This document shows positions 10,086 through 11,897 of a stretch of 64,000 nucleotides of DNA, piece by piece. A program made the translations under genes and the position numbers. Below the pieces are notes generated by a model that did not search any database, had not been told where the DNA came from, and saw only the letters and a list, made by a program, of their open reading frames with translations. Positions within the stretch are counted from its first letter, which is position 1. Each line of letters starts with the position of its first letter. Source of the stretch: Promicromonospora panici (GTDB lineage: Bacteria > Actinomycetota > Actinomycetes > Actinomycetales > Cellulomonadaceae). The DNA lies in contig NZ_UWYY01000030.1 in NCBI RefSeq assembly GCF_900608595.1, forward strand, positions 1-64,000, written 5' to 3'.

Positions 10086-10151
10086 GCACCGGCGAGTGTC
10101 CCGCTCCCTCATTAGCATCAAGAAAGGAGTAGTCGCTCTCGAGAGGTGGCA

Positions 10152-11195
10152 ATGCTTGGGAATCAGTACGTAGAGGCATTTCATCAGCTGACGACGGAGG
10201 CCAACGACGCCGGCCTGATGCGCCGTCGATACGGTTTCTACTGGTCGATGATGCTGTTCTGGACGCTGGTGACGGCGGCGGTCCTGGTCGGGGTGGTCCT
10301 GCTGGGAGACACCTGGTTCCAGCTGGTCCTGGCGGCCCTGCTCGGTCTCGCGATGGCGCAGCTCGCGTTCCTGGGGCACGAGGCGGCCCACCAGGAGATC
10401 TTCGCGTCCCAGGGCTGGAACGAGTGGACGGCCCGTGTCATCGCCGGGCTGTTCAACGGAATCAGCTACGGCTGGTGGGCGGACAAGCACAGCCGCCATC
10501 ACGCGAACCCGAACAAGGAGCGAGACGACCCCGACGTCCGGTCCCGGGTGCTGTCCTTCACGCCGGACAACACGGACCGGCGCACCGGCCTGGCCGCGGC
10601 GCTCGCCCGGTACCAGGGGTTCTACTTCCTGCCGCTGCTGCTCTTCGAGGGGTTCTCCCTGCACGTCAGCTCGGTCCGGACCATCCTCACCGGCAAGGAC
10701 GTCGCGCATCGCTGGACGGAGATCCTCTTCGTCGGGATCCGGGTGCTCGGCTACCTCGCCTTCCTGTTCGTCTTTCTCCCGCCCGGGCTGGCGGTCGCCT
10801 TCGTCGCCGTGCAGGTCGCCGTGTTCGGGTTCCTGCTGGGTGGCGCGTTCTCCCCCAACCACATCGGGATGCCCACCGTCCCGCACGACGCCGACATCGA
10901 CTTCCTGCGCCGGCAGATCCACATGTCCCGCAACGTCCGGGGCGGGCCGCTGGTGCACTTCTTCATGGGCGGCCTGGAGTACCAGGTGGAGCACCACCTG
11001 TTCCCGATGGCGCCCCGTCCCAACCTGCCCGCCCTGCGGGACATGGTTCGCAGGTACTGCGCCGAGAACGGCATCCCTTACACGGAGACGTCGCTCGGCG
11101 AAGCATTCCGGACGATCATCGCCTACCTGAACCAGGTCGGGCTGAAGCACCGCGACCCGTACACCTGCCCGCTGGTCCGCCGGTACCGCGGCTGA
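10152..11195 (+). CDS. Membrane fatty acid desaturase
   Basis: A 347-residue di-iron desaturase with the three histidine boxes in order: GHEAAHQE (about 75), DKHSRHHANPN (about 112) and EYQVEHHLFP (about 280). Hydrophobic helices lie between boxes one and two and around 165-215. The QxxHH third box is typical of front-end/acyl-lipid desaturases. An extra GTG at 10146 is in frame; ATG 10152 is chosen because GAGAGGTGG lies just before it. The ferredoxin gene 20 bases downstream is the obvious electron donor. Double-bond position cannot be predicted. Confidence 0.9.
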   Translation: MLGNQYVEAFHQLTTEANDAGLMRRRYGFYWSMMLFWTLVTAAVLVGVVLLGDTWFQLVLAALLGLAMAQLAFLGHEAAHQEIFASQGWNEWTARVIAGLFNGISYGWWADKHSRHHANPNKERDDPDVRSRVLSFTPDNTDRRTGLAAALARYQGFYFLPLLLFEGFSLHVSSVRTILTGKDVAHRWTEILFVGIRVLGYLAFLFVFLPPGLAVAFVAVQVAVFGFLLGGAFSPNHIGMPTVPHDADIDFLRRQIHMSRNVRGGPLVHFFMGGLEYQVEHHLFPMAPRPNLPALRDMVRRYCAENGIPYTETSLGEAFRTIIAYLNQVGLKHRDPYTCPLVRRYRG

Positions 11196-11215
11196 AGCAT
11201 GGAGGACGCATATCA

Positions 11216-11443
11216 ATGAGGGTCACCATCAATCCGACCACCTGTATCGCGTCCGGGAACTGCGGCCGCACGGCACCGCGCGTGTTCGCCAACCGGACCG
11301 AGGACGACGGGTTCGTCAGCCTGATCGACGAGAACCCGCCCGAGGCGGAGTGGGCGTCCACCCGCGAGGCCGAGAACCTCTGCCCGTCGGCGACGATCAG
11401 CATCGAGGAGGACGACGCCGACGAGGTCAGTGGGTCAGCTTGA
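11216..11443 (+). CDS. Ferredoxin, [3Fe-4S] type
   Basis: A 75-residue single-cluster ferredoxin with CIASGNC near the N-terminus and NLCPSATI near the C-terminus. This is the Cx5C...CP pattern of actinobacterial 3Fe-4S ferredoxins that serve P450s and desaturases. GGAGG precedes the ATG. Directly behind the desaturase, it probably passes electrons to it. Its last 17 bases overlap the end of the convergent exporter gene. Confidence 0.88.
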   Translation: MRVTINPTTCIASGNCGRTAPRVFANRTEDDGFVSLIDENPPEAEWASTREAENLCPSATISIEEDDADEVSGSA

Positions 11444-11741
11444 GGCCGATCACGCAGCCGATCAGCCCGAGGATCAGCAACACCCGGACCACCGAGACCG
11501 GTTCGGCGCCGGTCACCATCGCCCAGGCGACGGTGGTCGCGGCTCCGATCCCGACCCAGACGGCGTAGGCGGTCCCGACGGGCAGGTCTCGCATGGCGTA
11601 GGCGAGCCCACCCATGCTCGCGACGAGGGCCGCACCGAAGAGGATGCTCGGGCCGAGGTTGCTGAAGCCTTCGGAGCGGCTGAGGGCCGTGGCCCAGACG
11701 GCCTCGAAAAGGCCGGAGACGACGAGGAAGATCCAGGACAT
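11427..11741 (-). CDS. gdx: SMR-family guanidinium exporter (Gdx/SugE)
   Basis: A 104-residue four-helix small multidrug resistance protein. The essential membrane glutamate is in GLFEAVWA (residue 13 region), and the family signature LPVGTAYAVWVGIG and ending GLKLTH match the SugE/Gdx branch rather than EmrE. Gdx proteins export guanidinium ion in exchange for protons. The assignment is strongly supported by a guanidine-III riboswitch just upstream on the same strand. The Shine-Dalgarno AAGGAG (11748-11753) is six bases from the ATG. No second SMR partner gene is adjacent, so it probably forms a homodimer. Confidence 0.93.
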   Translation of the reverse strand: MSWIFLVVSGLFEAVWATALSRSEGFSNLGPSILFGAALVASMGGLAYAMRDLPVGTAYAVWVGIGAATTVAWAMVTGAEPVSVVRVLLILGLIGCVIGLKLTH

Positions 11742-11756
11742 GGTGTGCTCCTTCGA

Positions 11757-11798
11757 TTGCCGTCTTGTCGCGCACCGGGTACGGCAACCCTCGTCCGG
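11757..11798 (-). promoter_or_regulatory. Guanidine-III riboswitch (ykkC-III, mini-ykkC relative)
   Basis: On the minus strand the element begins CCGGACGAGG, continues with TTGCCGT then ACCCGGT, and ends GACAAGACGGCAA. These are the conserved blocks of the guanidine-III class. The stem TTGCCGT/ACGGCAA keeps pairing although, as I recall it, the Thermobifida fusca example uses GCGCCGT/ACGGCGC, so base pairs covary. CCGG at the 5' end can form the class's pseudoknot with the later CCGG. The gdx ribosome binding site begins three bases after it, which suggests control of translation initiation by guanidinium. Confidence 0.9.
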
Positions 11799-11897
11799 GA
11801 ACCTCTTCAGGCTCTGGATCCAGGTTCGCACATGCGGCAGCGGTGCGGCAGACCGGTACGCGGTGGCGTTGGCCACCCGTGCTGGTTGACTGTGCCC

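Follow-up and report, generated by a model that had tools for sequence, protein, structure and literature searches.

Guanidine-III riboswitches and Gdx exporters

The ligand, fold, and ON direction of guanidine-III riboswitches, as well as their link to Gdx, have been published (PMC5696562, PMC7695847, PMC12186494). Guanidinium contacts two guanines and one cytidine of the pseudoknot core, stabilizing a triplex (PMC5696562, PMC12186494), and the core nucleotides CCGGACGA, GUACCCGG, and GACAAGAC are >97% conserved across the class (PMC5696562). In the class literature, ligand binding switches expression ON by making the ribosome binding site accessible; protection of the mRNA from RNase E was reported later (PMC5696562, PMC12186494). 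Gdx (SugE) proteins are guanidinium/H+ antiporters. They conserve W16, a site held by Gly or Ala in Qac proteins, and their substrates include hydrophobic substituted guanidinyl compounds as well (PMC7695847).

The 64-kb stretch of Promicromonospora panici DNA analysed here (the window) carries an element closely resembling the Thermobifida fusca guanidine-III riboswitch (RF01763; PDB 5NWQ; RNA sequence taken as printed in PMC5696562). The blocks CCGGACGAGG, GCCGUACCCGGU, and GACAAGACGG are common to both RNAs, as are both helices and a position 5' of a guanidine-related gene. The outer P2 pairs G12-C41 and C13-G40 of T. fusca are both U-A in the window element, a compensating change, and position 11 is U in T. 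fusca and G in the window. The strand connecting P1 and P2 is one base longer in the window element, and the Shine-Dalgarno (SD) sequence lies 3 nt away, compared with a published 16 nt in T. fusca (PMC5696562). The protein encoded downstream shares its length, E13, W16, S42, Y59, W62, and a start-to-end alignment with Gdx-Clo and other riboswitch-linked Gdx antiporters, although its sequence has diverged from theirs, as an actinobacterial orthologue.

The riboswitch upstream of gdx

The original prediction called a guanidine-III riboswitch on the minus strand and proposed a covariance search with RF01763. That search (Rfam 15) returns a match at window positions 11754-11817 (minus strand) that is complete over model positions 1-67 and scores 56.5 bits (E 5.1e-9) against a gathering score of 36 bits. 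It is the sole Rfam match at the gathering threshold when the whole window is searched. A search of the 6.58-Mb genome finds only this copy of RF01763, which lies directly 5' of the only SMR gene in the genome, gdx. The core nucleotides of the class are all present, and so are the blocks CCGGACGAGG, CCGTACCCGGT, and GACAAGACGG named in the prediction.

The Rfam alignment includes an optional 5' hairpin, AGCCU-GAAG-AGGUU (11800-11813, minus strand), and similar hairpins are seen in the leaders of many relatives. Downstream of it, the pseudoknot helix P1 (in Lilley naming) spans 11775-11798 on the minus strand, pairing CCGG at 11798-11795 with CCGG at 11778-11775, according to the sequence and the published fold (PMC5696562). 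The strand ACGAGGG (11794-11788, minus strand) runs between the two helices and corresponds to the strand with a ligand-binding role in PMC5696562. Helix P2 (11757-11787, minus strand) pairs UUGCCGU at 11787-11781 with ACGGCAA at 11763-11757, an assignment supported by covariation of the inner pairs. The SD sequence AAGGAG (11748-11753, minus strand) begins 3 nt past P2, with exactly UCG between the seventh T. fusca-equivalent pair (11757) and position 11753.

The element had been correctly recognized and its 3-base gap to the SD correctly read, but the interval first assigned to it, 11741-11800, cuts off the 5' hairpin and at its other end runs on through the SD and the spacer to the A of the start codon ATG (11741). 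Similarly, the compensating changes relative to T. fusca are real but had been placed in P1; the stem concerned is named P2 in PMC5696562.

Predicted transcription start and control of gdx expression

Little of the gdx leader appears to lie outside the aptamer. A candidate extended -10 element, TGCGAACCT, is found at 11822-11830 (minus strand) and conforms to a TG..A...T-type motif that recurs about 31-37 nt (~33 nt) upstream of CCGGACGA in most homologous leaders, about 100 in number. No conservation or information was found for a -35 box in these leaders. Given the position of the extended -10-like motif, the gdx transcript is predicted to start at about 11815, near the 5'-most base of the aptamer. 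The guanidine-III riboswitch very probably makes up nearly the whole gdx 5' leader and acts as a guanidine-responsive ON switch for the Gdx exporter, with ligand, ON direction, and pseudoknot fold presumed to be those of the class. Guanidinium at micromolar levels would bind the H-type pseudoknot core and lock the third strand into a P2 triplex. This locking would turn gdx expression on at the level of translation and/or mRNA stability, and Gdx would then export guanidinium in exchange for protons.

Two output steps have precedents in the class literature, translation and stability. Folding gave no support for SD sequestration by a conserved upstream anti-SD. When 106 leaders were folded with a nearest-neighbour model, each at four 3' lengths and with the aptamer enforced or not, no conserved SD-blocking partner and no consistent SD release emerged, the method leaving pseudoknot and triplex unscored. 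In these calculations, which lack pseudoknot and triplex terms, formation of the aptamer does not make the SD any more accessible: its mean unpaired value is 0.48 with the aptamer formed versus 0.63 without it, and values are similar with longer 3' ends. With these two features unscored, the result does not refute switching, but it gives no support to simple SD release either; the output step may lie in translation or in stability control.

Alternatively, the aptamer may mainly protect gdx mRNA, with the bound pseudoknot at the 5' end blocking RNase E scanning and exerting little direct effect on the SD. Richards and Belasco (2021), as summarized in PMC12186494, describe such protection for guanidine-III riboswitches, and both the predicted transcript start near the first base of the aptamer and the folding result on the anti-SD fit this proposal. 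On the other hand, almost all of the 106 homologues have an SD-like motif 0-5 nt past the seventh pair of P2, suggesting a constraint tied to ribosome loading. Protection as the main output is a tentative reading, less likely than not.

The transporter encoded by gdx

The gdx gene (11427-11741, minus strand) encodes a predicted SMR-family guanidinium exporter of 104 amino acids, as judged by its match to PF00893 (SMR; 71.9 bits), its similarity to Gdx-Clo, and its marker residues. At lower window coordinates lie genes for a fatty acid desaturase (10146-11195, plus strand) and a small 4Fe-4S ferredoxin (11204-11443, plus strand), possibly an electron-donor pair; the 3' end of the ferredoxin gene overlaps that of the convergent gdx.

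A genuine riboswitch could in principle place a Qac-type multidrug exporter under guanidine control. SMR family names are unreliable, and the gdx product scores 96 bits with the SugE model NF008512, under NCBI's curated cut-off of 126. The protein is thus not assigned to the NF008512 equivalog, which is narrower than the Gdx subtype. The closest solved relatives in the PDB are Gdx-Clo chains (E 4e-20), with EmrE far weaker (E about 1e-6), and the Gdx markers E13, W16, S42, Y59, and W62 are all present. Moreover, W16 is found in 80 of 80 gdx orthologues, whereas Ala occupies this site in both of the same-genus SMRs that lack the riboswitch and could be aligned there (in genomes G001 and G003). 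On the evidence of W16 and the nearest relatives, a Qac-type pump is rejected as highly improbable, and the Gdx assignment is preferred.

That the SMR gene encodes a guanidinium exporter is supported, and the protein contributes as much to this as the RNA does. The further claim, that substrate specificity is fixed by the riboswitch beyond the information in the protein sequence, is overstated and not supported, since the five marker residues already identify the Gdx subtype and Gdx proteins carry substituted guanidinyl compounds in addition (PMC7695847). In addition, a search of 119 relatives under stricter filters yielded no RF01763 match in the genomes of seven W16-type SMRs (47-56% identical) that belong to the same family or order. 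The riboswitch strongly supports a function related to guanidine, yet it is not needed to recognize a Gdx protein. It indicates the inducer of gdx, not the full substrate range of the pump.

The window gdx stands as a single gene, unlike the paired SMR genes of several other genomes of the order. Two adjacent SMR genes lie 3' of the riboswitch in G023, G026, G042, G082, G084, and others, an arrangement that suggests heteromeric Gdx pairs. Three genomes (G003, G005, and G038), two of the same genus and one of the same family, have no riboswitch, and their only SMR genes are paired. Among these three, only G003 could be aligned at site 16, where it has Ala, consistent with joint loss of gdx and the riboswitch.

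Distribution and covariation

Of 119 relatives, 66 carry RF01763, 64 of them with a score above the cut-off. Weak matches in G017 (contig 23), G048, and G073 fall below the family cut-off, have no intact core blocks, and were taken as chance. By a route independent of the riboswitch, 80 gdx orthologues were fetched from 84,980 species genomes by protein similarity alone. The arrangement CCGGACGA...TACCCGG...GACAAGA lies directly upstream of 71 of these genes, and eight of the other nine have an RF01763 match above threshold that ends 12-20 nt before the start codon. In total, 79 of the 80 orthologues are directly preceded by an RF01763 or core-pattern match.

Evidence for helix P2 comes from 106 distinct aptamers, collected with the CCGGACGA pattern and hence fixed in that stretch. 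The inner variable pairs 2, 3, and 4, counted from the loop, show standard pairing in 106, 104, and 101 of the 106 aptamers, compared with shuffle maxima of 78, 93, and 78. Covariation in P2 is far above these shuffles; they do not keep relatedness, which overstates the significance, yet each position shows more than one or two kinds of base pair. P1 is CCGG/CCCGG in 105 of 106 aptamers, only its 3' side being free to vary given the collection pattern. It is invariant save in one sequence and hence uninformative on covariation.

Taken together, the covariance score, the covariation, and the consistent gene context support the guanidine-III identity. A chance match or a decayed riboswitch remnant is ruled out by the E value of 5e-9, the complete model, the conserved core, and the compensated P2. 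The window holds an intact and genuine guanidine-III riboswitch paired with gdx in the ordinary way; both the riboswitch and its pairing with the Gdx pump are already well known and widespread in relatives.

A possible second guanidine-III target

Four genomes of the same family (G024, G045, G062, and G071, the last only 81% complete) have RF01763 above the cut-off but no SMR gene was found in them. In all four, the riboswitch precedes the same kind of ∼85-amino acid membrane protein, two tested members of which match NCBIfam NF047864, 'CBU_0592 family membrane protein'. These genomes hold the four best matches to the CBU_0592-family protein among the 119 relatives. RF01763 elements 5' of the CBU_0592-family gene are located at L113:501-566, L114:2564-2624 (minus strand), L115:494-554, and L116:2021-2087 (minus strand). 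The wider class adds eight homologues (L149, L151-L154, L160, L162, and L166) that are immediately preceded by an RF01763 match above threshold, and two others (L156 and L157) whose upstream match scores just below it. Some of the wider-class genomes with a riboswitch-linked CBU_0592 gene additionally carry an SMR gene that lacks an RF01763 match.

At least 12 genomes from several families thus have the riboswitch immediately 5' of a CBU_0592-family gene. These arrangements suggest, with about even chances, that the actinobacterial guanidine-III regulon reaches a second, unrelated protein of non-SMR type, which may serve in guanidine export or tolerance. It may be able to replace Gdx, given the several genomes with CBU_0592-linked riboswitches in which no SMR gene was found. 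A literature search, incomplete in its coverage, found no paper joining the CBU_0592 family name with guanidine.

Implications

For the organism, the analysis provides a firm annotation: its single SMR gene most likely encodes a Gdx that is inducible by guanidine rather than a general multidrug pump. For the field, the locus adds one more case of an established riboswitch class and its gene pairing. The comparison also turned up a riboswitch-linked, non-SMR membrane protein that is directly testable for guanidine export.
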